This document shows positions 1 through 22,142 of a DNA stretch of 23,254 nucleotides, one piece after another (the first letter of the stretch is position 1; each line of letters starts with the position of its first letter). A program made the position numbers and the translations under genes. The notes under the pieces were generated by a model. The model ran no database searches. It was not told where the DNA came from and saw nothing but the letters and a program-made list of their open reading frames with translations. The stretch is from a virus, in the IMG/VR virus record IMGVR_UViG_3300008448_000680, positions 1 through 23,254 of that record, one strand, 5' to 3'.

Positions 1-3000
1 TAAATGCAGTATCATCTAGTTTCTCGCAAACTGCGTCATTTATAACGACAGCGCAGACAGCAAGTTATGTTTTGCAATCAGTCTCAGCATCATTTGCAAC
101 ATCTGCATTAACAGCATCATATGTTTTACCATTACGACAAGACGTACAGTTAACTGGGTCGCTAACCATATCAGGTTCGACTACACAAATTGGTACTAAC
201 ACGTTACTAGGTAATACTCTCTTATCAGGAAGCCTAACAATTTCAGGATCATCACCTATAGGTTCACCTTTGCCAACTATACAAATATACGGTGATATTA
301 GACAAAGTGGTTATCATAGATTTGATCCTGTAATTACTAACATAGATACATCTGTAACAGCTTCTTATATTTATGTTTCTGGTTCAACCCAAGATTTATA
401 TTTTTCACAAAACAGCCCCGGATATAATAACGTAACTCGCTTACGTTGGTTAGAAGGTAACTTATATACCGGACTTTTACATGGTGGTTTAATTACGACG
501 GCGTCATCTACCATTTATCGAATTTCAAGCGGTAGTGGTATTATAGTAAATTTGAATGCGTCTTTAGCAAATGATCCGTATCCGGTAATACAATTTTTAC
601 AATGGGGGAATTTGTCTGCAAGTATTGCTCCATTGACAGCTTCATATCAACAAGCCTTTGTTGGTATTGACACAACTGGTAACATTTTTGCTCAAGGTAC
701 TCCGTTTAGCAACGGTCAATTTGATAGCATAATTAATATAGGTGGAGTATTTTTTCAAAACCAATCCACAATTAATGGTGTTAAAACACAACCTTCTGTA
801 GCATATGGTTTTGAACAACAGCAAAATGTATTTAATAGAGCATTTGGACCTTTAAAGTTATCCGGATATACTTTAGCACCTAGTGGTTCTTCAACTGGTA
901 GTCTTATAGTAGCTAGCGGTACAGCATATGCCCCTGGGTCTAATTATGCTGTAGATCCAAACGAACCTTACTATACTGTTGATAATGGAACTAACGTATC
1001 CAAAATTTTCAGATATCATCAATCTGGTTCTACTTGGGTATACAATACAAATGGGGGTGCAGGATTCGCCACAATCAACCCGAGTCAATATTCAAATAAC
1101 GGTACTCTTACAACAGTACAACCTAATGACTGGTCAATTCAACGAGTATTTTGGTTTCCAAACTCAGTTATTAAAGCAATAGTTGTCTATTACGGTAATC
1201 AATCATATTCAACAGAAGCAGACGCTATTGCTAATATTAACATTGAATCGTTTGTCGAAGCACCAAACACATCGGCTAATGCTATTTATTTAGGTGCAAT
1301 AATAATTAGAGGTAATGGTGTATTAACTACTCCTGCTGATTTTACAATTGTTCCTGGGGGACTATTTAGACAAGTAGGAGGATCAGGCGGCGGTGGTTCC
1401 ATAATAACCCAAACATTATCAGGTTTATCAGATGTATCTATTTCAGGACCATTAAATGGACAGCCATTAGTATACAATAATACTTCTGGCAAATGGCAAA
1501 ATTTATCAACATTAACCGCTGATTTAACAGGAAATGCTTCTACTGCTACAAGTGCTTCTTTTGCATCTACGGCTAGTTACATAGTAACCGCTCAAACTGC
1601 TAGCTATGTATTGAATGCAGTATCAGCATCATTTGCAACAGTTGCAAATTCAGTAAATGATCTCAATCAAAATGTATATATATCCGGATCTTTGACGGTA
1701 GTTGGCCCTGCAACATTTTACGGATCAGCTTCATTTGTTAACGTTACTGCATCAAATCTATACGTTAGCGAATCATTTATTTCTGTAAATGTATTTGAAC
1801 CTGTAGAAAGATTTGGTGGATTAAAAGTATATGATTCTGGATCTAGCACAGCAACAGCATCATTAGCTTGGGATTCATTACATAATCATTGGGTATATCA
1901 AAATGTATCGGGCTCAACATACTCCGGAGGAATGCTTTTATCAGGTCCTCGTAATACAGGATCACTAGGAGATGAACCAAATTTAACTAAATGGCGTATA
2001 CCTAGAAGCGATGGTGGTGATCATTTAGATGATTCACAAATATATAGTTCAGGATCTGTAACAATTGTAACTGGTTCACTTACGGTAACTGAAGGTATAA
2101 CCGGTAGTTTGTTTGGAACTGCCACTACTGCTACTACCGCATCGCATGCATTACAATCAAATACTATATTACCATTAGGCGGAGATACACAAACTGGATT
2201 TATATCATATGTAAATTCTACCGGTTCATTTCAATATGTTAAAGGATATCATAGATTTAATATTGATATTGCTTTAGGTGGTGCAACCACAGTAAATTTA
2301 ACCGGAAGTTTAATTGCATCGAGCATAACCGGGTCATTGCAAGGTACTGCATCTAATGCTGTATCAGCATCATGGGCACCGGCAGGCGGTTCTAATAGCT
2401 ATATACAATTTAATGATAGTGGTTCATTTGGAGGTAGTGATAGTTTATATTTTAATAGAACTATAGCATCATTAGCAAATGGTAAAGGCGTAAAAGTAAA
2501 GGGACAATGGTCACACGCTCAAGGAGATGCTACTACTGCAATTGGTAGACTTTCACACGCAGAAGGCTCACAAACAACAACAGGTATGTCTGCATATTCA
2601 TGTAGTATTAACGCCGGCGTTGTAGAAATTGATGCTACACTAGGTGATTTAACTTCAACATATGCCGATGGTACAACAATATGGTGGGGCGATATTGCTG
2701 CTGTTGGTAATGGAATTACAAAAGGTATTGTTACTGGTAGCATGTTTAATGGTACCAATACAGTATTCCAACTTTTAAATGATAATTCAACAACGATAGC
2801 AGCTGCTGGTATTGTAGATAAAAGTGGAAACGTAGCTGATCAATTGGGCGGAACATATGCTCACGCAGAAGGATCTTCGGCAAGTGCAATTGGTGACGCT
2901 TCACACGCAGAAGGAGAAGGAAATTCAGCATATGGCTATGCTTCACACGCAGAAGGAGCTAGTGTTGTATCAATTGGTCAATATTCGCACGCCGAAGGAG

Positions 3001-3944
3001 AAGGAAATTCAGCATATGGCTATGCTTCACACGCAGAAGGAGCTAGTGTTGTATCAATTGGTCAATATTCGCACGCCGAAGGAGGCAGTACTACGAGTGG
3101 TTATAATGCATATAGCACAGTTAATATTGCTGCAGGAGTAATAACATTTGCAAGTTATTATGGAGATTTATCTGCAACGTTCACACCAGGTACCGTAATT
3201 TACGTTGAAGATGCTACTCAATACGCAGTACTAATACATGAAGTTGCTAGTGTTAGCATTAACGGAAACGGCGAAACGGAAGTAACACTAGTTGATACTA
3301 CATATGACCCACAAGCTGCAAATTATGTAGGAGTACAAGGACAATCACAACCAACTTATGCAGATCAAACAATTGGTAACTCATCACATGCTGAAGGAGA
3401 ATCAACAATTACATTGGGGTATGGTTCACACGCAGCCGGCATCGGCACAATTACCCATGGTTATTATCAATCCGTAGTAGGACGATACAACGCTCCAGTA
3501 CCTCAATCAAGTTCATTTGTGATTGGAGATGGTGCTGATTCGGCTAATTTGCATAATTTGCTTGTAGCAGGTAATGGTGTAGTAACTATATCGGGTTCAT
3601 TAACAGTGTCCGGTTCATCAACATTCCGAAATATTGGTTTAGCTGAATTCACCGGAAGTGTTGTAGCAGATGCCGTTACTGGTTCATTCACTGGGTCATT
3701 CGTCGGAGATGGATCTGGCTTAACAGGAGTAGGTGCAACAGAATACATTCGCAGAAGTGATTATACCAGCTCACTCGATCCAAACGTAAATTATCTTTAC
3801 ACAGGATATGCTCCAGTAGGATCTGCAGAGTCTGCCACAGTATGGACATTGTCTCGATTAGCAATATCCGCATCTGGAGATACCATAACACAAGTAACTG
3901 CAAGTGCTGCCTGGACCGATAGATACATTGTTACATATTTATAA
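1..3944 (+). CDS. Large modular tail fibre / receptor-binding protein, 5' end outside window
   Basis: The frame is open from the first bases, so the TTG at 72 is not a real start and about 1313 residues of a longer protein are visible. Order of parts: a TASY/SASF repeat shaft (3-131); a domain at about 500-1340 with the SGSGIIV and QRVFWFPNS...YYGNQSY signatures seen in many phage tail-fibre domains; a glycine-rich linker near 1380; a second TASY/SASF shaft (1531-1650); a block with ERFGGLKVYDSG and KWRIPRSDGG (about 1807-2060); the phage-fibre motif YIQFNDSGSFGG (about 2391-2430); ten SHAEG-type YadA-head-like repeats (2508-3440) closed by QSVVGRYN; and a tip domain with YLYTGYAPVGSAESATVW. 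Composition is rich in Ser, Thr, Gly and Ala, with no membrane segment or enzyme motif. By family knowledge such proteins are trimeric fibres that contact the host surface. Trimer formation and receptor binding are inferred. Confidence 0.9.
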   Translation, partial: NAVSSSFSQTASFITTAQTASYVLQSVSASFATSALTASYVLPLRQDVQLTGSLTISGSTTQIGTNTLLGNTLLSGSLTISGSSPIGSPLPTIQIYGDIRQSGYHRFDPVITNIDTSVTASYIYVSGSTQDLYFSQNSPGYNNVTRLRWLEGNLYTGLLHGGLITTASSTIYRISSGSGIIVNLNASLANDPYPVIQFLQWGNLSASIAPLTASYQQAFVGIDTTGNIFAQGTPFSNGQFDSIINIGGVFFQNQSTINGVKTQPSVAYGFEQQQNVFNRAFGPLKLSGYTLAPSGSSTGSLIVASGTAYAPGSNYAVDPNEPYYTVDNGTNVSKIFRYHQSGSTWVYNTNGGAGFATINPSQYSNNGTLTTVQPNDWSIQRVFWFPNSVIKAIVVYYGNQSYSTEADAIANINIESFVEAPNTSANAIYLGAIIIRGNGVLTTPADFTIVPGGLFRQVGGSGGGGSIITQTLSGLSDVSISGPLNGQPLVYNNTSGKWQNLSTLTADLTGNASTATSASFASTASYIVTAQTASYVLNAVSASFATVANSVNDLNQNVYISGSLTVVGPATFYGSASFVNVTASNLYVSESFISVNVFEPVERFGGLKVYDSGSSTATASLAWDSLHNHWVYQNVSGSTYSGGMLLSGPRNTGSLGDEPNLTKWRIPRSDGGDHLDDSQIYSSGSVTIVTGSLTVTEGITGSLFGTATTATTASHALQSNTILPLGGDTQTGFISYVNSTGSFQYVKGYHRFNIDIALGGATTVNLTGSLIASSITGSLQGTASNAVSASWAPAGGSNSYIQFNDSGSFGGSDSLYFNRTIASLANGKGVKVKGQWSHAQGDATTAIGRLSHAEGSQTTTGMSAYSCSINAGVVEIDATLGDLTSTYADGTTIWWGDIAAVGNGITKGIVTGSMFNGTNTVFQLLNDNSTTIAAAGIVDKSGNVADQLGGTYAHAEGSSASAIGDASHAEGEGNSAYGYASHAEGASVVSIGQYSHAEGEGNSAYGYASHAEGASVVSIGQYSHAEGGSTTSGYNAYSTVNIAAGVITFASYYGDLSATFTPGTVIYVEDATQYAVLIHEVASVSINGNGETEVTLVDTTYDPQAANYVGVQGQSQPTYADQTIGNSSHAEGESTITLGYGSHAAGIGTITHGYYQSVVGRYNAPVPQSSSFVIGDGADSANLHNLLVAGNGVVTISGSLTVSGSSTFRNIGLAEFTGSVVADAVTGSFTGSFVGDGSGLTGVGATEYIRRSDYTSSLDPNVNYLYTGYAPVGSAESATVWTLSRLAISASGDTITQVTASAAWTDRYIVTYL
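2508..3440 (+). repeat. SHAEG repeat region (YadA-head-like) inside the tail fibre
   Basis: Ten copies of the pentad SHAEG, or close variants (SHAQG, AHAEG, SHAAG), occur here. Most adjacent copies are 14 residues apart, the spacing of the YadA/Hep_Hag head repeat, which forms a left-handed trimeric beta-roll in bacterial trimeric adhesins. The array is interrupted twice, at 2583-2855 and 3099-3380, by related non-repeat segments. It is followed by a closing segment QSVVGRYN and FVIGDG. Confidence 0.88.
2910..3084 (+). repeat. Perfect 84-bp tandem duplication (28 codons) within the fibre
   Basis: Bases 2910-2993 and 2994-3077 read identically, and the identity continues 7 bases into the next unit. 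Each unit is 28 codons and carries two SHAEG motifs, beginning EGEGNSAYGYASHAEG. There are no synonymous differences between copies, while the neighbouring SHAEG units differ at many third positions. The duplication therefore looks recent. It preserves the reading frame. Confidence 0.95.
3934..3944 (+). promoter_or_regulatory. Candidate late promoter motif CATATTTATAA
   Basis: ATATTTAT (3935-3942) overlaps the fibre gene's stop codon and lies 22 bases before the ATG at 3957. It is followed by the ribosome-binding sequence AAAGGAAAG. The same 8-mer lies upstream of several other genes in this window. Promoter function is inferred. Confidence 0.45.
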
Positions 3945-4247: not shown

Positions 4248-5696
4248 ATGCCAAATAGATGGCCCATCGCATCAGGTAATTGGAGTAACGCTGCAATTTG
4301 GAGCGGATCACTTATTCCTACTGCATCTGATGATGTATTTGCTAATAATCGAATAATTACAGTAGATCAAAATATATCTGTTAGATCATTACAAAATTCT
4401 CCAACAGGTTCCGTATTAGGCGATGGTACATTTATTTCAACTAACGGAATTAGTATTACTAGTTCAAGAGGTATTTTTTCCGCATCGGGTACATTATTTA
4501 TAGTAACTGGATCTGATTCTGTATCATTTAGTTCATCTTTTTTTACTACTGGTTCGATAAGTAGAACTGGATCTCTAGTAATAAATTCAACAGGTACTAT
4601 TACAATTATAGGAGATATAACTGCATCTGGCGCACCTAATAGTAGTACTATAGTCATGAACGTTCCTGGTACTTTAATCATTACTGGTAGTTTATTAAAT
4701 AATGGACCAGCAACGGGTGCAACAAATGCTCATGGTGTGTTTTTAATAACCGGGTCGTTATGTTCAATATCTGGTTCCTTAAATGGAACGGCAGGAACCA
4801 GTACTTTTACTAACCATAACCTAAGAATTTCAGGTAGTTGCCCTGTTATAATTACTGGTTCTATATCAGGTGGACGAAGCCAATCTGTTTATAACCAATT
4901 AAACCCCCAAACAGTAAATATATTAGGGAACTGCACTGTAGTTTGGACCGGTGGTTCATCTACAATTACTATACAACATTCAGCAGTAGGTTCTATGAAT
5001 ATAATAGGTAATTTATATGCAAACGGTGCTGGGGCTGTTATTACAAATTCCGGAGTAGGTATATTAAATGTATTTGGAAATTTAACCAGTGACCAAGGTG
5101 GAGGAAATCAACCTGCTGTAATAACCAATACTTCTACAGGTACAGTAATAGTTACAGGATCAGTATCCACAGGAACATCAACAGCTGCTATAACATCAAC
5201 AACTGCAGGTACTATTATAGTACGAGGTCCCATATCTTCTAGCACAACAGCTGTTGGAGTATCATCAACCTCAACTACCGCAACAAACCTATTCACAGGT
5301 CCATTCTACAATACAGGTTCATATAATGCAGTTTATGCATATCGTATGCAAATGTTAAGCACTTCATCATCTTGGAGATTTGACACAGAAACAGCAGGTG
5401 TAACAAAAACACTATATACTTCAAATCAACTTCCCGGAGTACCTCGACAAACAGATGTACGAAAAGGAACACAATATAATTTTGGATTAACTGGCTCACT
5501 TGAAATGCCTGATCCAACCGTAGTAAAAACGGGAGTTGCTGTAGATAACACAACAGGTTCTGCTATTTTAACAGCACAAGATATGTTTGATATTGCAACA
5601 CAAACATTAACTACCTCGGGTAGTATAGGAAATTTATTAACCGGAGCTTCCACTGTACAAACAACGGGAGCTACCATATCATCATTTAAAGTGTAA
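4248..5696 (+). CDS. Beta-helix tail adhesin-like protein, paralogue 1 of 4 (G8-like N-terminus)
   Basis: 482 residues. The N-terminus (about 1-50) has the pattern SGNWSNAAIWSGSLIPTASDDV followed by ITVDQNI, resembling the W-T-W, P...DDV, VTLD pattern of G8-like domains in surface and extracellular proteins. The middle (about 75-340) is repetitive Ser/Thr/Gly-rich sequence with short strands such as TLIITGSLLNNG and IVTGSV, as expected for a parallel beta-helix. The last about 100 residues are shared with the three following genes: PGVPRQTDVRKG, then GVAVDNTTGSA and SIGNLL. The RBS GGAGAAAGGA overlaps the end of the previous gene. Probable fibre or baseplate appendage binding a host glycan; the ligand is unknown. 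Confidence 0.85.
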   Translation: MPNRWPIASGNWSNAAIWSGSLIPTASDDVFANNRIITVDQNISVRSLQNSPTGSVLGDGTFISTNGISITSSRGIFSASGTLFIVTGSDSVSFSSSFFTTGSISRTGSLVINSTGTITIIGDITASGAPNSSTIVMNVPGTLIITGSLLNNGPATGATNAHGVFLITGSLCSISGSLNGTAGTSTFTNHNLRISGSCPVIITGSISGGRSQSVYNQLNPQTVNILGNCTVVWTGGSSTITIQHSAVGSMNIIGNLYANGAGAVITNSGVGILNVFGNLTSDQGGGNQPAVITNTSTGTVIVTGSVSTGTSTAAITSTTAGTIIVRGPISSSTTAVGVSSTSTTATNLFTGPFYNTGSYNAVYAYRMQMLSTSSSWRFDTETAGVTKTLYTSNQLPGVPRQTDVRKGTQYNFGLTGSLEMPDPTVVKTGVAVDNTTGSAILTAQDMFDIATQTLTTSGSIGNLLTGASTVQTTGATISSFKV

Positions 5697-5697
5697 T

Positions 5698-6942
5698 ATG
5701 GCTACAATAACATCGACAGCAACCGGAAATTGGTCAGCAACTGGAACATGGGTTGGTGGAGTAGTTCCTACATCAGTAGATGATGTTGTTATTGGAGCTA
5801 ATCACACAGTAACATTAGATATTGATGCTACTATAATATCATTAACCGGAGCTGCAAATACTACTAGTAATTTAGCTATTACTACAAATAGAACATTAAC
5901 ATGTACAGCAACAAATGGTATAATAGCAAAATCTATTAATTCTGGAGGTGGTTTAGTTAGAATAACAGGAGTTGGTATAATAGTAACTATAAATTCAAAT
6001 TTAACTGGGGCATCTGGTGGTGGTGGAGGAACATTTGCAGTATCTGTTAATAGTGTAAGTACTGTAAATATTAATGGAGAATTATCAAATCCCCTTTTTA
6101 ATAGTGGTGGAGTAAATGCTCCCTTAAATATAGGTGCGGCTGCAACTGTAAATATTATAGGAAATGTTACCGGAGGTACTAATGCAGCTGCTCCCTCAGC
6201 TAATGCTATTTATGCTAACTCATCATGTATTTTAAACATATTAGGAAATATATCAGGGGGCACATTTGGTACTGGTGGAACGGCAATAACTAATACAACC
6301 TCAGCATGTACTATAAATATAACAGGAAGTTGCATCTCCCGAATTGCCCCGGCTATTAGTAGTACACAAGCTAGCACAATAAATATATCAGGTTCTATAA
6401 TAACAGGAACAGGTGCATCTGCAATTACATTATCTGGTGCTAGTATCTTAAAAATTAATGGACCTATTTCATCCAGCACATCATTTCCAGGTGTACAATC
6501 AACTAGTGCAACTGCTATTAATGCATTTACAGGGCCATTTTATAATGTAAATAATCGAAATGCAGTATACGCAGTTAATCTTCAACTACTTTCAGGTTCA
6601 ACCCCAACATGGACCTTTGACACAGAAACAGCCCAAGAACAAAGAACCTTATATACACAAAATTATCCGGGGAATTTCCCATCTGCCTCAAACGTAAGAC
6701 AAGGAACCATATTTGGAGATACAAATCAATTCACAGGAACAGTAGCAATACCTTCTACCGGTTCTGTACTTAAAGGAGTACCTGTAGACAATACAACAGG
6801 TTCTGCTTCATTTGACGTACAAAGTGTATGGGGTATAGATACAAATAATTTAACAACAACAGGAAGCTTAGGAGCACGTTTACGTAATGTTGCAACAGTT
6901 GCAACAGATGCTTCTGCAATAGCTTCAAAAGGAAATTTATAG
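5698..6942 (+). CDS. Beta-helix tail adhesin-like protein, paralogue 2 of 4
   Basis: 414 residues, starting one base after the preceding stop codon and without a convincing ribosome-binding site, so translation is probably coupled to the upstream gene. The N-terminus (ATGNWSATGTWVGGVVPTSVDDVV, then TVTLDIDAT) matches the G8-like pattern of its neighbours but is the most divergent of the four. The body carries repeated turns of the INIxG type (VNIIGNVTGG, LNILGNISGG, INITGSC, INISGSI). The C-terminal module with NVRQGTIFGD, GVPVDNTTGSA and SLGARL is shared with the other three. Likely a surface-exposed virion protein. There is no catalytic motif suggesting a depolymerase. Confidence 0.84.
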   Translation: MATITSTATGNWSATGTWVGGVVPTSVDDVVIGANHTVTLDIDATIISLTGAANTTSNLAITTNRTLTCTATNGIIAKSINSGGGLVRITGVGIIVTINSNLTGASGGGGGTFAVSVNSVSTVNINGELSNPLFNSGGVNAPLNIGAAATVNIIGNVTGGTNAAAPSANAIYANSSCILNILGNISGGTFGTGGTAITNTTSACTINITGSCISRIAPAISSTQASTINISGSIITGTGASAITLSGASILKINGPISSSTSFPGVQSTSATAINAFTGPFYNVNNRNAVYAVNLQLLSGSTPTWTFDTETAQEQRTLYTQNYPGNFPSASNVRQGTIFGDTNQFTGTVAIPSTGSVLKGVPVDNTTGSASFDVQSVWGIDTNNLTTTGSLGARLRNVATVATDASAIASKGNL

Positions 6943-6945
6943 AAT

Positions 6946-8265
6946 ATGCCAGTAAGATACGCAGTAGCATCAGGTAATTGGAGTAGTTTAGCTACTTGGA
7001 ATGGTGGTTTAACTTTACCTACTGCATCTGATGATGTGTTTACAAATACATATACTGTAACTATAGATCAGAATATTAATGTTTCTAGTATTAGTAACAG
7101 AGCATCTGGTAGTGCAGTAGTGGGAGGGAATTATATTTCAACAAACGGTATATCTATTACTGCCTCTAGAACAACTGCAGGAATTGTATCAGCTAATTCA
7201 TCTGCTGTATTAATTGTCACCGGTTCGCACGTAGTATACATTTCTTCTAGTATACAAGGCGGCGATGTTCTTAATGGATATGGCGTTCGTGTTACTAATG
7301 GTGGAACTATATATGTTACGGGTAGTGTTTCTTCTGGAGTAGCTGGCGGAGGTTCTACTGATAATTATGGAATACTAATAACTACAGGTAGTGCTTTTAT
7401 ACAAGGAAATTTAAGAACAAATGGCGATGTAGGAAATTCAGCTGGTGCTTGTGTGTTTATCAATAACGGTACTGCTAGTATTGCTGGGAATTTATACTCA
7501 GCTACAAACCATGCACCGATTGCTATAGGTGCAGGAAATGCTCAAGTTAATTTTTCCGGAAGTGCATTTATTTTAGGTACAAGTACAGGTAATATGCAAG
7601 TACAAACAAGAGGAGCAAACACGGGTGTTTTAAACTATATAGGTCCTGTTATTGGGAACAACAATGCAGGTATTGGTTTAGGTGCAGGTACAATGACTGT
7701 AAATATTACTGGAAGTGTTTATTCAGTTGGCGCATCATCAGGTATTTCATCAACAGTAGCCAGTACAATTAACATTAATGGTCTAATTACAGCAAATAAC
7801 AATGCTCCCGGCGTATCATCAACTTCAACCTCAGCAACAGTACGCGTTACAGGACCATTAATTACATCTCAAAACAATATCAACCCAGTATATTCGCCTA
7901 AAATACAACTTATATCAACTTCAACTCCAACATATACACTAGAAACAGATACATTTCCTAGAGAAGTTACATTTTACGATACGTCATTTACTTCTAGTTT
8001 ACCTACCCAAACCAATGTACGAAGTGGAAGTTTATATGGTGGATCAAATGAATTTTCTGGTTCAATGGCAGTACCTTCAACAAGTTCCGTACGTTACGGA
8101 GTACCCGTGGATAATGCAACAGGTTCTGCTACATTGACCCCACAAGACATTTTGAATTATGCAACACAAAATTTAACAGGTTCCAATTCAATTGGAGCTC
8201 GTTTAAAAAATATAGCAACAGTACAAACCACAGCAGCAACTATTGCTGCCTTTAAAGGAAAATAA
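6946..8265 (+). CDS. Beta-helix tail adhesin-like protein, paralogue 3 of 4
   Basis: 439 residues. The start ATG at 6946 is supported by AAAAGGAAA about 13 bases upstream and by alignment of its first residues (VASGNWSSLATWNGG, PTASDDVF, VTIDQNI) with paralogues 1 and 4. A parallel-beta-helix-like middle (about 60-320) is rich in short VTGS/ITGS strands. The final third repeats the shared module: TNVRSGSLYGGSNEFSG, GVPVDNATGSA and SIGARLKN. It overlaps nothing and is spaced 3 bases after the previous stop. Function is inferred from architecture and position between fibre and sheath genes. Confidence 0.85.
   Translation: MPVRYAVASGNWSSLATWNGGLTLPTASDDVFTNTYTVTIDQNINVSSISNRASGSAVVGGNYISTNGISITASRTTAGIVSANSSAVLIVTGSHVVYISSSIQGGDVLNGYGVRVTNGGTIYVTGSVSSGVAGGGSTDNYGILITTGSAFIQGNLRTNGDVGNSAGACVFINNGTASIAGNLYSATNHAPIAIGAGNAQVNFSGSAFILGTSTGNMQVQTRGANTGVLNYIGPVIGNNNAGIGLGAGTMTVNITGSVYSVGASSGISSTVASTININGLITANNNAPGVSSTSTSATVRVTGPLITSQNNINPVYSPKIQLISTSTPTYTLETDTFPREVTFYDTSFTSSLPTQTNVRSGSLYGGSNEFSGSMAVPSTSSVRYGVPVDNATGSATLTPQDILNYATQNLTGSNSIGARLKNIATVQTTAATIAAFKGK
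8254..8260 (+). promoter_or_regulatory. Ribosome-binding site AAAGGAA that fixes the start of adhesin paralogue 4
   Basis: AAAGGAA lies at the very end of paralogue 3, 6 bases before the ATG at 8267. It decides against the in-frame upstream candidate start at 8243, which would lie inside the preceding gene and add eight residues absent from the otherwise identical N-terminus of paralogue 1. Confidence 0.8.
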
Positions 8266-8266
8266 T

Positions 8267-9505
8267 ATGCCAAATAGATGGCCCATAGCTTCTGGTAATT
8301 GGAGTAATGCCGCAATATGGTCTGGGTCACTTATTCCTACTGCATCTGATGATGTGTTTTTAAATAACCAAACGGTAACGTTAGATCAAAACATTACAGT
8401 TACTAGTATACGAACAGCAGCAACAGGAAGTGCAGTTGCAGGAGGTAGAATTGAAATATATGGAAATTATAATATATCAGCTAGTTTAATTAGAAATACA
8501 GTTGCATCAAATATTCTTATATTAAATTATAACACTGAAAGTATTACAATAACATCTGCTTTAAATCAAAATAGTGGTAATGAAGAACGATGTATAAATA
8601 ATATATTGAATGGGACTATTAATATAATAGGAGATGTATCTGGATTAAACGGCACCGGGGGTACAACATTATCTACTATATCAAATTTATCCTCCGGTAC
8701 CATTAATGTAGTAGGAAATATACTTCCTGCAGGTGCAGGATCTGGTAATACTGCAATAACAAATATCCAAAATGGTACTATTAATATTACGGGTAATATA
8801 ACAGGGGGTAGTGCTGGTGGCGCCGGCACTTCACAAACAATTTTAAATTCTGGAACTGGGGTTATTAATGTAACAGGAAATGTTCTTGCAAGTAATTCCT
8901 TTGGTGGACTTGTATCAAGCGCAATTGCAAATTCATCTATAGGTACGATAAATGTAACAGGAAATGTAACATCGAGATTGTGGGGAGCAATTGCTTCAAG
9001 TACAGCAGGTATTATAAACGTAATAGGACAAATAGCAGCATCGACTGCATCTAATGCAGTTTCCTCAACTTCAACCACAGCAACCAACGTATTCTCTGGC
9101 CCATTTATAAATTCCGGTTCACGTAATGCAATATATTGTTATAACGTGCAATTATATGATGATGTAACAACTCGCTACACGATTGGAGTATCTGGTTCAA
9201 CCAATACAATCTCACTTTTATCACCCGATCAAGTAACCGGAGTACCTTCAGGTTCAAACGTTAGAGCTGGCGTAATTTACGGTCCTGGAAATGAATTAAC
9301 AGGTTCAATGCAAGTACCAGACCCTAGATCGGTATCATGGGGAGTACCGGTAGACAACTCGTCCGGATCAGCTTTAACAAAACCAGAAGACTTATGGAAC
9401 ATGGCAATTACTTCCCTAACGGCATCAAACTCAATAGGACAGCGCTTAGCTAATACATCAACTTCTGCTTCAATTGCAGCAATAGTAACGGCATTTACGG
9501 TTTGA
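8267..9505 (+). CDS. Beta-helix tail adhesin-like protein, paralogue 4 of 4
   Basis: 412 residues from the ATG at 8267. The first 31 residues are identical to those of paralogue 1 although the DNA has many silent differences. The middle is the clearest beta-helix of the set: GTINIIGD, GTINVVGN, GTINITGN, GVINVTGN, GTINVTGN and GIINVIGQ recur about every 24-32 residues. The C-terminal module has SNVRAGVIYGPGNELTGS, GVPVDNSSGSA and SIGQRL. It is the last gene of the array, and a 47-base gap separates it from the coiled-coil gene. A role in host contact or virion decoration is inferred. Confidence 0.86.
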   Translation: MPNRWPIASGNWSNAAIWSGSLIPTASDDVFLNNQTVTLDQNITVTSIRTAATGSAVAGGRIEIYGNYNISASLIRNTVASNILILNYNTESITITSALNQNSGNEERCINNILNGTINIIGDVSGLNGTGGTTLSTISNLSSGTINVVGNILPAGAGSGNTAITNIQNGTINITGNITGGSAGGAGTSQTILNSGTGVINVTGNVLASNSFGGLVSSAIANSSIGTINVTGNVTSRLWGAIASSTAGIINVIGQIAASTASNAVSSTSTTATNVFSGPFINSGSRNAIYCYNVQLYDDVTTRYTIGVSGSTNTISLLSPDQVTGVPSGSNVRAGVIYGPGNELTGSMQVPDPRSVSWGVPVDNSSGSALTKPEDLWNMAITSLTASNSIGQRLANTSTSASIAAIVTAFTV

Positions 9506-9870: not shown

Positions 9871-12324
9871 ATGGCAGAAAGAATAGTTTCGCCTGGAGTT
9901 TATACGAGAGAAATTGACGTATCATTCTTACCAGGTACAATTGCACAAATTGGTGCAGCAATAGTAGGACCAACACTTAAAGGTCCTGCATATACACCTA
10001 TACAAATTTCAAGTATTGCTGATTTTAATGATACATTTGGCGGTCAATATAATGATTCATATGTACCAGCAGCAGTAAAATCTTATTTAGAAAATGACGG
10101 AAATGTAATAACTGTTACACGTATTTTATATGAAGATGGATATTCATTAACAAATGGAGCATTAGCTATTGTAGCGCAGTCTGGTTCTCAAAAATATGTA
10201 ACTCATGTATTACATCCAACGGCGCCTGTAAGTGCAACTAATTACGGATTTGCTGATTCAGTATTAAATACCGATGTAAATGGCAAATTTGAATTAAAAT
10301 TGTCTGGTTCATATACAGCAACAGCAATTCCAGGATTTACAGCATTTACTTATACAGAAGGTGCATCAATTTCAGCATCAATTAATCCGTCTGATTCAAA
10401 TTATATTACGGATGTATTTGGACAATCACCAAAAGGACAAGATTATCCAGTATATGTGCAATATTCAAATCCATATACAGCTTCATTATTTCCAAATTTA
10501 TCAGCAGTTTCAATGTCTTTAGAAAAGATATCAACTTATGCATTTGTACAAGATTATCAAGCTGCAGAAACTCCATGGATTACTTCACAAAAAATTGGAT
10601 CATCTGTAACTAATTTATTTAAAATTCATTCATTATCTCATGGCGATGCAACAAATTATGAATTGAAAGTTGGTATTTCTAACATAAAAACTTCTGCAGA
10701 AGTAATAGATTCAGACAAATATGCTCGTTTTGATGTTGTAATTAGAAGAGTTGATACTCAAAACATAAAAAATTCAGTATTTGGTACTAACATACAAGAT
10801 TCTGATGTTCTTAATACGCCACCTGAAGTTGTATTTACTAATTGTTGTTTGAATCCAGATTCTGCAGATTATATTGCTAAAAAAATTGGAGATAGATATC
10901 AAACTATTGATGATGATAATCAAATTTTCTTGTATGGTGACTATGAAAATACAAATCCATATGTAAGAGTTGAAGTAGATGCGGCAGTAAAAAATAAATC
11001 AATTTCTAAAACACTATTTCCATTTGGATTCCGCGCAGTTCAATCTCCAATACCAATGGTATCAAGTAGTGTTAATATTCCTGCAGCAATTTATAAAACA
11101 ACACAAACATTTGGCGGATCATTTAATAGTTCAGTATATCATGGATTTGATTTTCTAGAAATAGCAAATTTGAATTATTTAGCTCCGATTCCAACAACGG
11201 GTGCAACGGTTGGTAATAATGTAGATTTTTATCTTGGAGATGTTTCTCAATCAGCTAACTATAATTTTCCAACCGTATTAACAGCATACTCAGGCTCATT
11301 AACCGCTGCATTAACAGCAGGAACATTTGAAGCAAATGTATCAATTAATACAAGAAAATTCATGGTACCAATGCAAGGTGGATTTGATGGAGCTCGTCCA
11401 AATTTACCTAAATATTCCGGAGAAAATATTACAGCAGCAAATACGTTTGGATTTGATTGTAGTTTAGATTCATCACCAGGTTCTAAAGCTTATAACAAAG
11501 CATTTACATTGTTAAGCAATACTGATTATTATGATATGAATGTGTTGTTAACACCTGGATTGATTGATAGTTTACATGGAACTGTAACAAATAATGCTAG
11601 AAATTTATGTAGAGATCGACAAGATGTATTTTATGTTATGGATTCTAATGAAAAAACAGCTACAATACAAAATGTAATTGATCAAGTTAGAACAATTGAC
11701 AATAATTATACAGCAACATATTGGCCTTGGTTAAGTATTAATAATCCAGCTGGCGGAGGAACATTATGGGTACCACCATCAGTTTTAATTGGCGGTGTTC
11801 TTGCTCAAAACGATTTTGTTAGTAAGCCTTGGTATGCTCCTGCAGGTTTAACAAGAGGAGGAGTACCAGCACTTCAAACAGCTATCAATTTATCTCAAGC
11901 ACAACGAGATACATTGTATGAAAATCGTGTTAATCCAATTGCATCTTTTCCTAATCAAAACATTGTAGTTTGGGGTCAAAAAACATTGCAAGTTTCTGCT
12001 AGTGCATTAGATAGAGTAAATGTACGACGTTTATTAATTGCAGTTAAGAAATTTATTGCATCGTCTACAAGATTCTTGGTATTTGATCAAAATACAGATG
12101 CAACTAGAAAAAGATTTATAAGTATTGTTGAGCCGTATTTATTAGATGTACAAAGAAATGCAGGTTTATCAGCATTCCGAGTAGTAATGGATGCATCAAA
12201 TAATACACCAGATCTTATTGATAGAAATATATTGTATGGACAATTGTTTTTACAACCAACTAGAACAGCTGAATTTATTGTTTTAGACTTCAATATTCAA
12301 CCAACTGGTGCGGCATTTGGATAA
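9871..12324 (+). CDS. gp18: Contractile tail sheath protein (gp18-like)
   Basis: 817 residues; T4 gp18 is about 660. The N-terminus SPGVYTREIDVS is the classic sheath start (the strand that links neighbouring subunits), followed by IGAAIVGPTLKGPAYTP and SSIADFNDTFGG. The C-terminal domain (about 690-817) has the conserved LLIAVKKFIASSTRFLVFD, the helix through NTDATRKRFISIVEPYL, then FRVVMDASNNTP, and ends LDFNIQPTGAAF. The central part (about 90-500) is the usual variable, surface-exposed insertion region and accounts for the extra length. The ATG at 9871 follows AAAGGAG at ideal distance. The product polymerises around the tube and contracts on infection. A terminator follows the gene, so the transcript can end here. 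Confidence 0.97.
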   Translation: MAERIVSPGVYTREIDVSFLPGTIAQIGAAIVGPTLKGPAYTPIQISSIADFNDTFGGQYNDSYVPAAVKSYLENDGNVITVTRILYEDGYSLTNGALAIVAQSGSQKYVTHVLHPTAPVSATNYGFADSVLNTDVNGKFELKLSGSYTATAIPGFTAFTYTEGASISASINPSDSNYITDVFGQSPKGQDYPVYVQYSNPYTASLFPNLSAVSMSLEKISTYAFVQDYQAAETPWITSQKIGSSVTNLFKIHSLSHGDATNYELKVGISNIKTSAEVIDSDKYARFDVVIRRVDTQNIKNSVFGTNIQDSDVLNTPPEVVFTNCCLNPDSADYIAKKIGDRYQTIDDDNQIFLYGDYENTNPYVRVEVDAAVKNKSISKTLFPFGFRAVQSPIPMVSSSVNIPAAIYKTTQTFGGSFNSSVYHGFDFLEIANLNYLAPIPTTGATVGNNVDFYLGDVSQSANYNFPTVLTAYSGSLTAALTAGTFEANVSINTRKFMVPMQGGFDGARPNLPKYSGENITAANTFGFDCSLDSSPGSKAYNKAFTLLSNTDYYDMNVLLTPGLIDSLHGTVTNNARNLCRDRQDVFYVMDSNEKTATIQNVIDQVRTIDNNYTATYWPWLSINNPAGGGTLWVPPSVLIGGVLAQNDFVSKPWYAPAGLTRGGVPALQTAINLSQAQRDTLYENRVNPIASFPNQNIVVWGQKTLQVSASALDRVNVRRLLIAVKKFIASSTRFLVFDQNTDATRKRFISIVEPYLLDVQRNAGLSAFRVVMDASNNTPDLIDRNILYGQLFLQPTRTAEFIVLDFNIQPTGAAFG

Positions 12325-12408: not shown

Positions 12409-13008
12409 ATGGCACAATCATATGATAGCATATTTGCAAAAGCAAATGGATTATCTCAAGACGTTAACCCAGGTGCAGTTACTGGTAATCCATATTCAGC
12501 ACAAAATTTAACTGACTATGGCTTAGAAAGTAATTTTTTCGATAATGCATATACATGGGAACCTAAATATCAACATAAATTTGTACTTGAAATGCAACAA
12601 GCAGGAATACCAGCATTTTTAATTAAAACAGCTGCTAAACCTTCAATGACAAATGGTGAATTGGTTTTAGATCATATCAACGTTAAAAGAAAATTAAAAG
12701 GTAAATCATCTTGGAATAGTATGGCTATAACAATTTATGATGCAATTGTTCCGTCTGCAGCACAAGCTTGTATGGAATGGGTTCGTAAGCATCATGAATC
12801 TGTAACAGGTAGAGATGGGTATGCTGATATGTATAAAGAAGATCTTTTACTTTATCAATTGTCTCCACTAGGAGAAGTTATTGAACAATGGATAATTAAA
12901 GGTGCATATTTGCAAGAAATCAACTTCGGTAGTTTAGATTGGTCTTCAGAAGATGTAGTAATGATTGATGCTACATTGAACTATGATTACGCAATATTAA
13001 GTTATTAA
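12409..13008 (+). CDS. gp19: Tail tube protein (gp19-like)
   Basis: 199 residues. From about residue 50 the sequence follows the T4 gp19 tube fold: YQHKFVLEMQQAGIPAFLIKTAAKPS, then VKRKLKGKSSWNSMAITIYDAI, a helix AAQACMEWVRKHH, and a C-terminus with WIIKGAYLQEINFGSLDWSS and IDATLNYDYA. The first about 45 residues are an N-terminal extension rich in Asn/Ser/Gly. The ATG follows AAAGGAA. Tube hexamers stack inside the sheath to form the DNA channel. The gene stands between two terminators with its own candidate promoter, so it can be made as a separate transcript at high level. Confidence 0.96.
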   Translation: MAQSYDSIFAKANGLSQDVNPGAVTGNPYSAQNLTDYGLESNFFDNAYTWEPKYQHKFVLEMQQAGIPAFLIKTAAKPSMTNGELVLDHINVKRKLKGKSSWNSMAITIYDAIVPSAAQACMEWVRKHHESVTGRDGYADMYKEDLLLYQLSPLGEVIEQWIIKGAYLQEINFGSLDWSSEDVVMIDATLNYDYAILSY

Positions 13009-13025: not shown

Positions 13026-13056
13026 TATGGGCATATATTGTTTATGCCCATTTTTT
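13026..13056 (+). terminator. Rho-independent terminator after the tube gene
   Basis: ATGGGCAT (13027-13034) pairs perfectly with ATGCCCAT (13044-13051) around a 9-base loop, followed by a run of six T. It lies about 20 bases after the tube stop. Confidence 0.9.
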
Positions 13057-13099: not shown

Positions 13100-13870
13100 A
13101 TGCCAATGACAGAACATTTATCTGACAAAAATTTAGTTGACCTAGCTAAACAAAATTTTGAAAATCGTCAAAAAAATACGATACCATCCATTATAGTCCC
13201 GCTTCCGAGTAATGGATTAGTTTATCCAAAATCTAGTCCACTTCATTCCGGACAAGTTGAAATGCGTTATATGACTGCATACGATGAAGACATTTTAACT
13301 AATGCTACATATATTAAGCAAGGAGTTGTTTTAGACAAGTTAATAAAATCTTTAATATTAAATGATGTTAATCTAGATGAAATGATTGTTGCAGATAGAG
13401 ATGTTTTAATAATTGCTGCCAGAATTCATGGTTATGGAAATGAATATACGGTTACCGTAACAGATCCTGAAACTAAAAGTACTTTGAATCGAGTTTTAGA
13501 TTTATCAAAATTAGAAATGAATCCATTTTTATTACAAGCAGATGAAAACGGAGAATTTGAATATAGAATAAATTCAGAAACTGTAGTTAAGTTTAAATTT
13601 TTAAATAAAACAGAATCAAATTCAATATCTTCAGAACATGCACTTTCTGATTTTTTAAAAAAATCAATTAAACAAGTTAATGAAACTAGAGATGCATTTA
13701 AAATAGAACAATATATTCGATATCAAATGAAACCAATTGAATCAAAACAATTGAGAACTTATATTTCTGACAATATGCCTGGTATTAAATTAGAAGCAGA
13801 ATTTGAGGGTGAAAACGGAGGCACCTTTACTGCCAGGTTTCAGATTGGATCAGACCTTTTTTGGGTTTAA
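13100..13870 (+). CDS. gp26: gp26-like baseplate/tail assembly protein (T4_baseplate family)
   Basis: 256 residues. The signature IPSIIVPLPSNGLVYP, then SPLHSGQVEMRYMTAYDEDILTN, the helix with GVVLDKLIKSLI, and ADRDVLIIAARIHGYGNEY match the T4 gp26 / T4_baseplate family, small hub-associated proteins needed for baseplate assembly. The C-terminus ends in GSDLFWV, similar to the family's F/W-rich end. The ATG is preceded by AAAAAGGAAAG. The last 77 bases overlap an open +1 frame that lacks a normal start (see next entry). Together with its place two genes before the tape measure, this suggests it is the short product of a frameshift pair, like G and GT of other tailed phages. Family assignment is fairly firm; the frameshift is inferred. 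Confidence 0.86.
   Translation: MPMTEHLSDKNLVDLAKQNFENRQKNTIPSIIVPLPSNGLVYPKSSPLHSGQVEMRYMTAYDEDILTNATYIKQGVVLDKLIKSLILNDVNLDEMIVADRDVLIIAARIHGYGNEYTVTVTDPETKSTLNRVLDLSKLEMNPFLLQADENGEFEYRINSETVVKFKFLNKTESNSISSEHALSDFLKKSIKQVNETRDAFKIEQYIRYQMKPIESKQLRTYISDNMPGIKLEAEFEGENGGTFTARFQIGSDLFWV
13857..13862 (+). promoter_or_regulatory. Candidate +1/-2 frameshift slippery site (six T)
   Basis: In the gp26 frame the reading is GAC CTT TTT TGG GTT TAA. A Phe-tRNA on the TTT at 13859-13861 can re-pair perfectly one base forward (13860-13862) or two bases back (13857-13859). Either move enters the downstream frame at GGG TTT AAA CCT, just before the gp26 stop at 13868. Confidence 0.55.
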
Positions 13871-14096
13871 ACCTAAAGACCGGATATTATTACACGAAAA
13901 CTTGTTTAATTTGATATGGCACGGAGAAGGCCGATGGAGTTGGGAAACTGTTTACAATATGCCAATTCCTATTAGGAAATTATGGATTAACAAACTCAAT
14001 GAAATTCTTGCTATTAAACAAGCTGCAGCGGATCCAAAAAACAATAAAACGCCAAAAAAAGTACCAGGCTCTAAAACATTGTCAAAATTCAAATAA
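13863..14096 (+). CDS. Frameshift-extension domain, probable tail assembly chaperone C-terminal part
   Basis: This frame is open from 13794 (in-frame TAG at 13791) to the TAA at 14094. It has no ATG before the internal Met at about 13960, no ribosome-binding site, and only TTG (13803) or GTG (13809) as possible starts, all inside gp26. Sequence downstream of the T run looks conserved: LHENLFNLIWHGEGRWSW, YNMPIPIRKLWINKLNEI, then a basic low-complexity tail. The pattern (helix, F.LI.HG.G.., MPI..R) resembles C-terminal parts of phage tail assembly chaperones. I read it as a +1 (or -2) extension of the gp26-like protein, giving a fusion of about 331 residues and ending 12 bases before the tape-measure gene. 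A separate protein from TTG/GTG is the alternative. Confidence 0.72.
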   Translation, partial: GFKPKDRILLHENLFNLIWHGEGRWSWETVYNMPIPIRKLWINKLNEILAIKQAAADPKNNKTPKKVPGSKTLSKFK

Positions 14097-14108: not shown

Positions 14109-16019
14109 ATGTATATGATACAAAACCTTTACATATTAATAGCTAGACTTAAACAGCAATCTAAACATGGTACTGAACCAGCGGATAAAAAAGTTGTTAC
14201 AATGGATGAAGCAGCTAAAAACAAATTAGCTGCCGATATACAGAACATAATTAAAGGAATGTCCGCCAGTACTGGAGCTACAGAAAAATATCAAGCTGCC
14301 TTAGACAGTCTTAACACAACAAATCTTCAGCTTCAACGAGGCATTCTAGAAATGACTAAAGATATGGATGCACATGCTCAAGCAATGATTGCTTCAGTAA
14401 AAGCTGCAACATTTTTAGAACAAAGAAATGCATCATTAAATACGAGTTTTGGTATTACAAGTAAAAAAGCTGCAGAATTAGGTGAAAAATATGATGAAAT
14501 AGGAGAAACATTAAAAGTTGGCGGATCCAACGTAAGAAAATATGCAGAAAATATTAATCTAATGTTGCCTGGATTATCTAGTGTGATTGCAAAAAGTGGA
14601 GAATTTGGTAATAAACTAATAGCCGGTAATGCAGCATTAACTGATCATTTAAAGCTATCTGCAGAACAAGCTAATGCATATCAATTATATGCCGCTGGTT
14701 TAGGTAAAACTGCAATTGAAACAATTGCTGCAACTGAAGAAATGGCAAAATCATTTGAAAAAAATACCAAAATGACAGGTGTTTTGAAAATGGCATTAAC
14801 AGAGATAGCAGATTTAGGTGGAGAAATCCAAATGGCATATAGGAAGTTTCCTGGTAGTTTAGAAAAATCTGTAGTTAAAGCTAAACTATTAGGTACATCA
14901 TTCAAAGCAATCGAACAAATGGCTACCAACATGTTGGATATTGAATCTAGTGTTGGTAAAGAATTAGAATATCAATTGCTTAGTGGTAAACGTTTAGTGA
15001 ATCAACAAGGTGAAAGTATTACAGAAAAACTGCGAATTGCTAAATTGAGCGGAAACGACCACGATATGGTTATGGCGATGAATGATTTATTAAAATCTCA
15101 AGGAGAAATTTTAGAAGGTAATAATCATTATGCAAAACAAGAATTGGCTAATTTGACCGGGTTTACTGTTGATCAACTATCTAACATGAAACAGGCTCGT
15201 CAATTGTTATCACAAAGTGGATATACTGAAGAAGATCTCGGTAATATAATGGCATTATCTGATTCAGCATTTGAGGCAAAAATGGCAGAAATTGCTTCAA
15301 AAAATCAAGATGCAGCCACATTATTAGAAGGAATTAGAAAAGAAAGTTCGGTACAAACAACCGATCAAGTTTTAGCAGAATTTTATACTTATGTAAAAGA
15401 TAAAGGCATTCGCGTGATGATGGGCAACCAATCGCAATCACAAATCATTGCATCTGCTTCAGCTGATGTTACTGCAGCACAACCAAAATTAGAAAATTTT
15501 ACTCAAATGTTTCAAAGTAAAGAGTTAGCACAATTAGTTGGAAGTTTACAAAATGAAGGTAGTGTTATATTAGGTTTAAAAAAACCAATTGACGAATTAG
15601 CTAAAAAAATTCCAATTGCTGGAACATTTTTTGATCAATTATCTGAGTTGATGAACAACACAATCAAAAACATATACGGTGTTCGCGATAACCCTGCTGC
15701 TGACGATAATTTAGTAAACCCTATCAACACAGACAAGACAGATGATGCAGTATTAGTCAATGACGGATTAGTTCAATTCAATAAAAATGATAAATTTGCA
15801 ATGATACCAGATGGAGCTGCGGTATTAGCTAGTACCAGTACTGGGGCACTAAAACAATCAGTAGATACAATGATGGGTTCTAGTAAAAATTCAGATGGGA
15901 ATGCAATTGCAAACGCAATCGTTGCTGCATTATCTAAAATGTCAATACATGTTAATTATAATCCATTAGTTGCACAAGAACAATTGGGATTCAAATTAAA
16001 TCAATCAATTAACGGATAA
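14109..16019 (+). CDS. Tail tape-measure protein
   Basis: 636 residues from the first ATG, mostly predicted helix. Features typical of tape measures of T4-like environmental phages: a central stretch ESSVGKELEYQLLSGKRL, then LRIAKLSGNDHDMVMAMNDLLKSQG and LANLTGFTVDQLSNM; a Gly/Ala-containing hydrophobic segment near LAKKIPIAGTFF; and a C-terminal part with VLVNDGLVQFNKNDKFAMIPDGA. It determines tail length and occupies the tube lumen. T4 gp29 is 590 residues, so a tail of about T4 length is expected. The start is uncertain: ATGs at 14109 and 14115 lack a ribosome-binding site, and another ATG lies at 14202. The sequence between them (LYILIARLKQQ) looks protein-like, so I keep the first. The stop is 2 bases before the next ATG. 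Confidence 0.85.
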   Translation: MYMIQNLYILIARLKQQSKHGTEPADKKVVTMDEAAKNKLAADIQNIIKGMSASTGATEKYQAALDSLNTTNLQLQRGILEMTKDMDAHAQAMIASVKAATFLEQRNASLNTSFGITSKKAAELGEKYDEIGETLKVGGSNVRKYAENINLMLPGLSSVIAKSGEFGNKLIAGNAALTDHLKLSAEQANAYQLYAAGLGKTAIETIAATEEMAKSFEKNTKMTGVLKMALTEIADLGGEIQMAYRKFPGSLEKSVVKAKLLGTSFKAIEQMATNMLDIESSVGKELEYQLLSGKRLVNQQGESITEKLRIAKLSGNDHDMVMAMNDLLKSQGEILEGNNHYAKQELANLTGFTVDQLSNMKQARQLLSQSGYTEEDLGNIMALSDSAFEAKMAEIASKNQDAATLLEGIRKESSVQTTDQVLAEFYTYVKDKGIRVMMGNQSQSQIIASASADVTAAQPKLENFTQMFQSKELAQLVGSLQNEGSVILGLKKPIDELAKKIPIAGTFFDQLSELMNNTIKNIYGVRDNPAADDNLVNPINTDKTDDAVLVNDGLVQFNKNDKFAMIPDGAAVLASTSTGALKQSVDTMMGSSKNSDGNAIANAIVAALSKMSIHVNYNPLVAQEQLGFKLNQSING

Positions 16020-20789: not shown

Positions 20790-20802
20790 TTGCAATTTTT
20801 TT

Positions 20803-20811
20803 CATATTATA
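20803..20811 (+). promoter_or_regulatory. Possible degenerate promoter motif CATATTATA before the polymerase
   Basis: CATATTATA lies 14 bases upstream of the ATG at 20817, in the only non-coding bases between the tail genes and the polymerase. It differs from CATATTTATA by one missing T. No ribosome-binding site follows. Weak. Confidence 0.25.
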
Positions 20812-20816
20812 CTAGT

Positions 20817-22142
20817 ATGATACTAGATCATGAACAAGATGTACTAAACATATTAGAGCAATGTGTTTCTAATAAAACATTACTTGTTCCTATATTTTCT
20901 AGTCCCATAATACATGTTTCGCAAAATCCATTAGTTGCAATATACATATATACTGCTGCAAATGATGAATGCATTATTCCGTTACGGCATACTGAACAAC
21001 TAAGGGGCTTTTCACAACATGTAACTGCATTTTTGCAATTAGAGAATATCTTTGTTCATGATAAGAAGCAGTGGCTTCAAATCGGAGGTAATGATGCTGT
21101 ATGGGATGTAAAAACATTGTGGTGGTATACATATGGAGAAGCATATGAAGAAGGACATTATCCAACTGCTGCTCATCAATTTTATTGGCGCAGACATAAT
21201 GCAATGCCCCATGTTAATGCAATAGTCCCATTACAAAAACATTTTGAAATGTGTCAAAAGATTCGACACTATGCTTGGCCGATGTGTGCAAATGCAGAAA
21301 TGTCCGATTCATACGTTAAGTTCAATGCAACATATCCGCGTGTATTTGCTATTATTGAATCTGCAGGATTACAAGTTACAGAAGAGTTCCGTATGCCAGA
21401 GATTGTAAAAGAAGGACGAGTTTATTCACAATACAATTATCATACCGTAACAGGTCGACCTAGTAATGCATTTCGAGGATTCAATTTTGCAGCAATGAAT
21501 AAAGAAGATGGCACACGAGCAGCTTTTTGTAGTCGTTTTAAAAATGGAGCACTTGTTGAAATGGACTTTGATTCATATCATGTTAGATTGATTGCAAAAC
21601 TTATTGGATACGAATTTCCAACAGCATCGATACATGATTATTTAGGACAATTTTATTTCGGAGTAACGGAATTAACTGAAGAACAACGTGCAGAAAGCAA
21701 ACAGATTACATTTCGATTACTTTATGGCGGTATAGATTCAGAGTTTTTATCAATACCATTTTTCCGGCAAGTAAACGCATTTATATATGAGTTATGGGCT
21801 AAATGGAAATCAAAGCATTATGTAGAAACGCCTGTTCTTAAACGGCGCCTAACTGCAGATGCATTGAAAAATATGACTGCAAATAAATTATTTAATTACT
21901 ATTTACAAGCAACAGAAACAGAAGTATCTGTACAAAAATTGCAACAAGTACAAAGCATATTAAAATCATATCAAAGCAGTATGATACTTTATACATATGA
22001 TTCAGTACTATTTGATGTTGAATTTTCAGAAGCAAAAAACTTATTGCCTCAAATCAAGAACATGTTAGAACATGGAAATTTTCCGGTTAAATGTAAAGTT
22101 GGTAATACATATGATATGTTACATTATATTTATATTAAATGA
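20817..22142 (+). CDS. Compact divergent family-A (Pol I-like) DNA polymerase
   Basis: 441 residues from the ATG; a TTG at 20790 is the alternative. Palm motifs in order: an arginine-rich lead-in (TGRPSNAFRGFNF), motif A LVEMDFDSYHVRLIA (Asp250), motif B R291-K295-F299-Y303-G304 with exact Pol I O-helix spacing, and motif C LYTYDSVLFDV (Asp395). Both metal-binding aspartates are kept. Pol I's motif A DYSQIELR is DFDSYHVR, and motif C HDE is YDS. The A-to-C distance is about 145 residues against 175 in Taq, so the fingers are short. The N-terminal about 170 residues look like a decayed 3'-5' exonuclease (VHDKKQWL, DVKTLWWYTYG) without the DxE motif. It is probably the phage replicase or a gap-filling enzyme. 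No ribosome-binding site is seen. It overlaps the next gene by ATGA. Confidence 0.85.
   Translation: MILDHEQDVLNILEQCVSNKTLLVPIFSSPIIHVSQNPLVAIYIYTAANDECIIPLRHTEQLRGFSQHVTAFLQLENIFVHDKKQWLQIGGNDAVWDVKTLWWYTYGEAYEEGHYPTAAHQFYWRRHNAMPHVNAIVPLQKHFEMCQKIRHYAWPMCANAEMSDSYVKFNATYPRVFAIIESAGLQVTEEFRMPEIVKEGRVYSQYNYHTVTGRPSNAFRGFNFAAMNKEDGTRAAFCSRFKNGALVEMDFDSYHVRLIAKLIGYEFPTASIHDYLGQFYFGVTELTEEQRAESKQITFRLLYGGIDSEFLSIPFFRQVNAFIYELWAKWKSKHYVETPVLKRRLTADALKNMTANKLFNYYLQATETEVSVQKLQQVQSILKSYQSSMILYTYDSVLFDVEFSEAKNLLPQIKNMLEHGNFPVKCKVGNTYDMLHYIYIK
22126..22133 (+). promoter_or_regulatory. ATATTTAT copy at the end of the polymerase gene
   Basis: An exact 8-mer lies 13 bases before the endonuclease ATG but inside codons for HYIYIK of the polymerase. 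It could be a coding coincidence or could drive the endonuclease gene. Confidence 0.2.

Follow-up and report, generated by a model that had tools for sequence, protein, structure and literature searches.

Comparative evidence for a programmed frameshift into the +1 phase at the end of a gp26-like gene for a probable tail assembly chaperone

Comparison of homologous sequences indicates that a gp26-like gene of the IMG/VR virus record IMGVR_UViG_3300008448_000680 very probably uses a programmed frameshift, in whichever direction the ribosome slips, to give two forms of a tail assembly chaperone, one short and one long. The sequence studied comprises positions 1–23,254 of this record, and the whole of this stretch (23,254 nucleotides) is referred to below as the window. 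The initial annotation had proposed a programmed frameshift that joins a gp26-like protein to a chaperone-like extension, and 161 nonredundant loci now lend strong comparative support to a shift into the +1 phase by which a small C-terminal domain is added to a member of the gp26 family. Most ribosomes would halt at 13868 and release a 256-aa gp26-like short form, and a minority would slip at CTT TTT TGG into the +1 phase, adding a 77-aa C-terminal domain to produce a 331-aa long form. We infer the slippage itself, its efficiency and its direction from the sequences. A division of roles between the two products is suggested by analogy with lambda gpG/gpGT: the N-terminal part common to both would coat the tape measure protein, and the tail tube protein would be recruited by the domain that only the long form has. 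G/GT frameshifting has been called conserved in long-tailed phages 'except T4' (2016 review, PMC5009743); it very probably occurs within the gp26 family itself, among hundreds of uncultured phages and a small number of cultured ones.

The probable chaperone locus and its predicted products

All of the genes concerned lie on the plus strand of the window, in the order sheath, tube, chaperone and tape measure. The tail sheath protein (9871–12324; PHROG 23 tail sheath, 2e-67) is followed by the tail tube protein (12409–13008; PHROG 4542 tail tube, 7.5e-25), and the gp26-like ORF (13100–13870, 256 aa, TAA at 13868), the putative short tail assembly chaperone (TAC-N) and lambda gpG analogue, stands directly between the tube gene and the gene for the tape measure protein (14109–16019, 636 aa), which adjoins it on the 3' side. 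The last was recognized by its similarity to the annotated tape measure of Flavobacterium phage immuto (26% identity over 128 aa, E 1e-8), and it also matches a protein of Mel-JY01 (E 9e-10). A terminator-like hairpin with a 9-pair stem and a T run (13027–13051, plus strand) occupies the intergenic space between the tail tube and chaperone genes; four sites of this kind were seen in the region, as against 0.5 expected.

Elsewhere in the window, 'SHAEG' units recur in a large fibre-like ORF (72–3944), in which a stretch near 2850–3140 is also repeated. Four consecutive ORFs of about 414–482 aa (4248–9505), upstream of the tail sheath gene, are apparently paralogous, having similar starts such as 'RWPIASGNWSNAAIWSGSLIPTASDDVF', and are likely to be repeated fibre or adhesin-like genes. 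A possible DNA polymerase-like ORF with a TTG start (20790–22142; a guess from the sequence) lies directly 3' of baseplate-type genes.

The junction in the window reads TCA GAC CTT TTT TGG GTT TAA, in which the candidate shift site, CTT TTT TGG (0-frame L-F-W), occupies 13856–13864 on the plus strand and includes a run of six T at 13857–13862. The +1-frame extension (13863–14096, plus strand, 77 aa), the putative T part of a GT-like long chaperone (TAC-NC), ends at the TAA of 14094–14096. The coordinates given in the initial annotation were all correct when rechecked on the sequence. The same is true of its statement that the +1 frame is closed upstream at 13791, where the sequence has a TAG (13791–13793, plus strand) 5' of the overlap, and of its statement that this frame has no ATG or ribosome-binding site near its 5' end: the first ATG is at 13959, and the TTG at 13803 and the GTG at 13809 lack a well-spaced Shine-Dalgarno sequence. 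The fusion would comprise 331 residues after a +1 shift (SDLF-GFKPKDR) and 332 after a -2 shift (SDLFF-GFKPKDR). The tryptic peptide across the junction would be FQIGSDLFGFKPK in the first case and FQIGSDLFFGFKPK in the second, and the short form would end in FQIGSDLFWV.

The gp26-like protein belongs to Pfam PF12322, T4_baseplate (46.3 bits against a cut-off of 24.5, E 5.5e-12), and matches PHROG 150, baseplate hub (2.8e-13). The gp26-like part and the extension were folded separately with AlphaFold2. The model of the former has a pLDDT of 89.5, and the predicted viral structures closest to it are gp26-type baseplate hub proteins, that of SP-15 included. Among solved structures, VIA-align placed the HK97 tail assembly chaperone 2OB9 first, with a modest Z of 5.1 (rmsd 3.2, 74 aligned residues; runner-up Z 2.4), a value that can arise by chance, and by Foldseek alone the same structure was not significant (E 5); still, a top match of this kind is in line with the rest of the evidence. 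Gene order, the match to the HK97 chaperone and homology to T4 gp26/gp51 all support the identification of the gp26-like protein as a tail assembly chaperone. The extension is predicted to be a small helical domain (pLDDT 79 overall, about 90 over residues 11–50 of the piece). Its hmmscan search returned no direct PHROG or Pfam match, Foldseek against the PDB gave nothing credible for it, and PDB sequence searches with profiles of the gp26-like part and of the extension returned no match.

Conservation of the probable slip site and of the reading frame

Scanning IMG/VR yielded 80 relatives in which overlap and phase are kept. The use of immuto and Mel-JY01 as seeds brought in 160 further loci, and a scan seeded with RM378 returned RM378 only, so that the comparison set consists of 244 loci, 161 of them nonredundant. 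Three cultured phages show the same overlap and phase, namely immuto (Flavobacterium), Mel-JY01 (Microcystis) and RM378 (Rhodothermus); at the immuto junction the 0 frame reads ..SFLWPDAGV* and the +1 frame ..FFGLTPEYR... An indel introduced into the T run during sequencing or assembly, splitting a single gene, might be suspected, as a homopolymer is located at the junction. However, the phase is identical in 244 loci from many assemblies and independently sequenced isolates, and the 0-frame stop is kept; the occurrence of overlap, phase and site in all these loci, including those of the three cultured phages, refutes assembly error, to which we assign a negligible probability.

The comparison of homologous loci, run as set beforehand, found the overlap, the phase and an NTT-YTN-T site retained in 161 of 161 nonredundant loci. 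Numbering the three codons of the site x1, x2 and x3, all 161 have the form NTT-YTN-x3, where x3 is TGG in 157, TAC in three and TTC in one, a regularity well beyond chance. The commonest site is TTT TTT TGG (91 loci), followed by CTT TTT TGG (32), TTT CTT TGG (25), CTT CTT TGG (4), TTT CTA TGG (3), ATT TTT TGG (2), TTT TTT TAC (2), TTT CTT TAC (1) and TTT CTA TTC (1), and the 0-frame stop lies 1–5 codons past TGG across the loci. The codons at x1 appear frozen: phenylalanine is encoded there by TTT in 123 of 123 cases (75.5% elsewhere in the gene) and leucine by CTT in 36 of 36 (17% elsewhere in the gene). Although the 161 loci are non-independent, their proteins reach down to about 22–38% identity to the window protein, and the freezing of the site codons is therefore not simply a matter of shared recent ancestry.

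The run of six T, which the initial annotation took as the slip signal, is present at 13857–13862 but is not invariant among the homologues, as CTT CTT TGG and TTT CTA TGG also occur. Its interruption bears on another explanation, in which RNA polymerase would slip on the T run and generate mixed mRNA encoding the fusion. Most loci do have a run of T6–T7, but where the run is broken (the CTT CTT TGG and TTT CTA TGG loci) the phase is unchanged, and we regard polymerase slippage as highly improbable.

In immuto- and Mel-type loci (for example, L083 and L082), TGG is always followed by CCT, and nucleotides +9 to +11 are invariant. The resulting TGG CCT (0-frame Trp-Pro) is invariant there, though other Gly and Leu codons would be possible in the +1 frame.

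A +1-phase extension of 65–114 aa exists in every locus of the 244 that is not cut by a contig end; short extensions were found only in L011, L148, L150, L184 and L245, all of which run off the contig. Across the 63 codons that follow the site, 155 of 155 testable loci keep the +1 frame open, and stops interrupt frame 0 in 155 of 155 and frame +2 in 152 of 155. In all three groups, the synonymous fraction of codon differences upstream of the site is 0.15–0.34 in frame 0 and 0.05–0.11 in the other frames, while downstream it is 0.31–0.37 in frame +1 and 0.07–0.16 in the others. The peak thus moves from frame 0 to frame +1, which shows that constraint switches frame at the site. Five loci that appeared to be exceptions with another frame (L034, L055, L208, L237 and L245) proved to be an artefact of choosing the longest frame, and all of them carry the +1 extension. 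Downstream of the gp26-like gene of an Alishewanella phage (L088), no clear conserved domain was found.

The initial annotation would have been contradicted by homologues with non-overlapping genes or with a downstream gene having its own ATG and ribosome-binding site. Close homologues overlap, and 35 of the 161 loci lack any ATG, GTG or TTG in the stretch from the last +1-frame stop to the site, so that separate initiation cannot be the general mechanism. Such a mechanism, in which the extension would be translated apart, from an internal +1-frame start or by re-initiation coupled to the gp26 stop, and no fusion would be made, may have counterparts: separate initiation probably occurs in relatives, as the gp51 of cyanophages has a conserved ATG 5 nt past the gp26 stop and that of Pseudomonas phage Cygsa01 starts in a TAATG overlap. 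An in-frame +1 ATG is also found upstream of the site in 72 of the 161 loci, and internal initiation could therefore add to expression in some of them. This upstream ATG, however, is not conserved (the window has ACG at that position), 13 loci have just three open +1 codons before the site, and an independent start leaves both the frozen NTT-YTN codons and the constant phase unexplained. As the sole source of the extension, a separate start is very unlikely.

Direction of the proposed slippage

The frameshift proposed in the initial annotation was +1 or -2. The comparison supports the +1 phase, whereas the direction still admits both readings, of which +1 is favoured. Under a +1 slip, a tRNA-Phe or tRNA-Leu would re-pair one base 3' on the tandem UUU_Y / CUU_Y, and in most loci this would happen while the ribosome awaits the Trp codon. 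Every one of the 161 sites, and also that of Streptococcus phage SagM, has at least one good +1 tetranucleotide in the re-pairing table; +1 slippage at x2 is blocked at four sites (CTA), and at x1 it meets a first-position mismatch at two (ATT). UUU_Ynn is especially +1-prone in bacteria, even without a stop codon, and CUU_U is the RF2 +1 shift site (PMC5009743). Because it fits every site and because UUU_Y is documented as +1-prone in bacteria, a +1 slip on the tandem UUU/CUU_Y sites is favoured over -2 and is the probable course of events.

In a -2 slip, the tRNA on x2 in the P site, with TGG in the A site, would move back two bases onto TTY. We consider this slip, which is of the phage Mu kind, unlikely; its product would be one residue longer (SDLFF-GFKPKDR, 332 aa). 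At none of the 161 sites does -2 re-pairing meet a disallowed position; a -2 slip directly accounts for the fact that x1 always ends in TT, and it is documented in phage Mu (PMC5009743). However, x1 = NTT is also explicable by tandem +1 sites, and -2 shifts are rare, whereas UUU_Y and CUU_U are recognized +1 sites (PMC5009743). The site of SagM (TTC TTT CGT) also speaks against -2, since the middle codon position would be mismatched, while +1 at x2 pairs perfectly. If -2 slippage were true, Mu would no longer be the sole -2 system among phage tail chaperones, and the second one would be much more widely distributed; different lineages of one homologous chaperone family would then arrive at the same long product in three ways, through a -2 slip, a -1 slip or gene duplication. 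The natural site variants are available for discriminating between +1 and -2 slippage. The SagM-GXN1 site (L251:3170–3229) also resembles the influenza +1 cassette UCC_UUU_CGU (PMC5009743).

A downstream RNA stem or pseudoknot was not found by RNAalifold in the three groups (mean z of single sequences, -0.28), and no conserved upstream Shine-Dalgarno stimulator was recognized, SD-like 4-mers occurring 9–10 nt before x1 in some loci only. The shift may be low-level.

The gp26/gp51 family and known systems

T4 gp26 and gp51 (gene 26, L085:3803–4429; gene 51, L085:4480–5229) both match PF12322 (8.8e-64 and 3.9e-52, respectively), and residues 147–246 of gp51 match PHROG 634, the family of small cyanophage gp51. 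Judged by these sequence matches, T4 gp26 and gp51 are paralogues, gp51 bearing an extra C-terminal domain; T4 gp26 itself ends in KEFFELL* and has no +1-frame extension. That the extra domain is shared with cyanophage gp51 fits T4 gp51 as a long (GT-like) chaperone. In profile–profile comparison, the window-type extension matches cyanophage gp51 (probability 82%, E 1.1e-5), which in turn matches the T4 gp51 C-terminus (97%, E 2.7e-10); a direct profile comparison of the window-type extension with the T4 gp51 C-terminus fails (0.1%).

In the cyanophage-type set (81 loci, 39 nonredundant; L253 and L269–L348), gp26 carries a -1 heptamer, T_TTT_TTC, which is perfect in 39 of 39 nonredundant loci, is always preceded by a codon ending in T, and leads into the gene annotated as gp51, 'baseplate hub assembly catalyst'. 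Among distant homologues, the +1 type was found in Bacillus phage SP-15 and Listeria phage LIS04 (TTT TTT C/A) and in Streptococcus phage SagM (TTC TTT CGT), and the -1 type in Rhizobium phage IC12, Aeromonas phage phiAS5 and the huge phage LR756511 (T_TTT_TTC) and in Rhizobium phage RL38J1 (T_TTT_TTG). In a tree of 55 gp26 rows, a fully supported split divides a -1/T4 side from a +1 side; the -1 phage LR756511 branches inside the +1 side, on long branches. In phage phiAS5, a T4-like member of the Straboviridae, gp26 ends with a -1 slip site (L257:3190–3400), and the phage record annotates only a short extension fragment of about 40 aa.

In short, one chaperone family appears to keep a short/long pair by a +1-phase shift, by a -1 shift, by a separate gp51 start or, in T4, by duplication. 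Annotation can be corrected accordingly in immuto, RM378, SP-15, LIS04 and phiAS5, where the extension was missed or cut, and T4 gp51, which acts in hub assembly without being structural and has long been named a catalyst, can simply be read as the long chaperone.

The initial annotation expected a link between the gp26 family and tail assembly chaperones. The link is supported here but had already been published in 2022, and the assignment of the family is known. For T4-like phages, the tail assembly chaperones were reportedly identified by Vladimirov, Gautam and Davidson (Virology, 2022, doi 10.1016/j.virol.2021.11.003). The record of Acinetobacter phage Stupor names gp26, gp51 and gp28 'tape measure protein assembly chaperone'. 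Of the papers citing that study, PMC10885494 describes some T4-like phages that, in place of a frameshift, have one short copy alongside a longer, fused one, and PMC12846349 describes poly-T -1 signals in the short-chaperone genes of T4-like phages. The variant of +1 phase appears to be new, as do the rule for its site and its breadth of occurrence, none of the three having been found in the literature searched, in which citing papers stood for the 2022 study.

The present system resembles lambda gpG/gpGT and other chaperone pairs in the order of tube, chaperone and tape measure genes and in having a predicted short form and a predicted frameshift-extended long form with a common N-terminus, but the shift is -1 in lambda and of +1 phase here, and no sequence similarity was seen. 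The phage PSA of Listeria, which the initial annotation cited as a +1 example of G/GT, does not serve as one, as a review places its +1 shifts in the capsid and major tail protein genes. In phage Mu G/GT the shift likewise opens the +1 phase, though by -2 in Mu and probably by +1 here. The tandem UUU/CUU_Y tetranucleotides are like the UUU_Ynn and CUU_U (RF2) sites; unlike RF2-type sites, however, they have TGG in the A site, not a stop codon, and no conserved Shine-Dalgarno spacing. As in the cyanophages, gp26 passes through a probable slip site into a putative gp51-type domain, but the cyanophage shift is of -1 phase, on T_TTT_TTC, and a conserved gp51 ATG exists there. The T4 hub assembly chaperones gp26 and gp51 share PF12322 with the window protein, and profile comparison links the extension, via cyanophage gp51, to the T4 gp51 C-terminus; whereas T4 has two separate paralogous genes, the window and its relatives have one gene with a probable frameshift.
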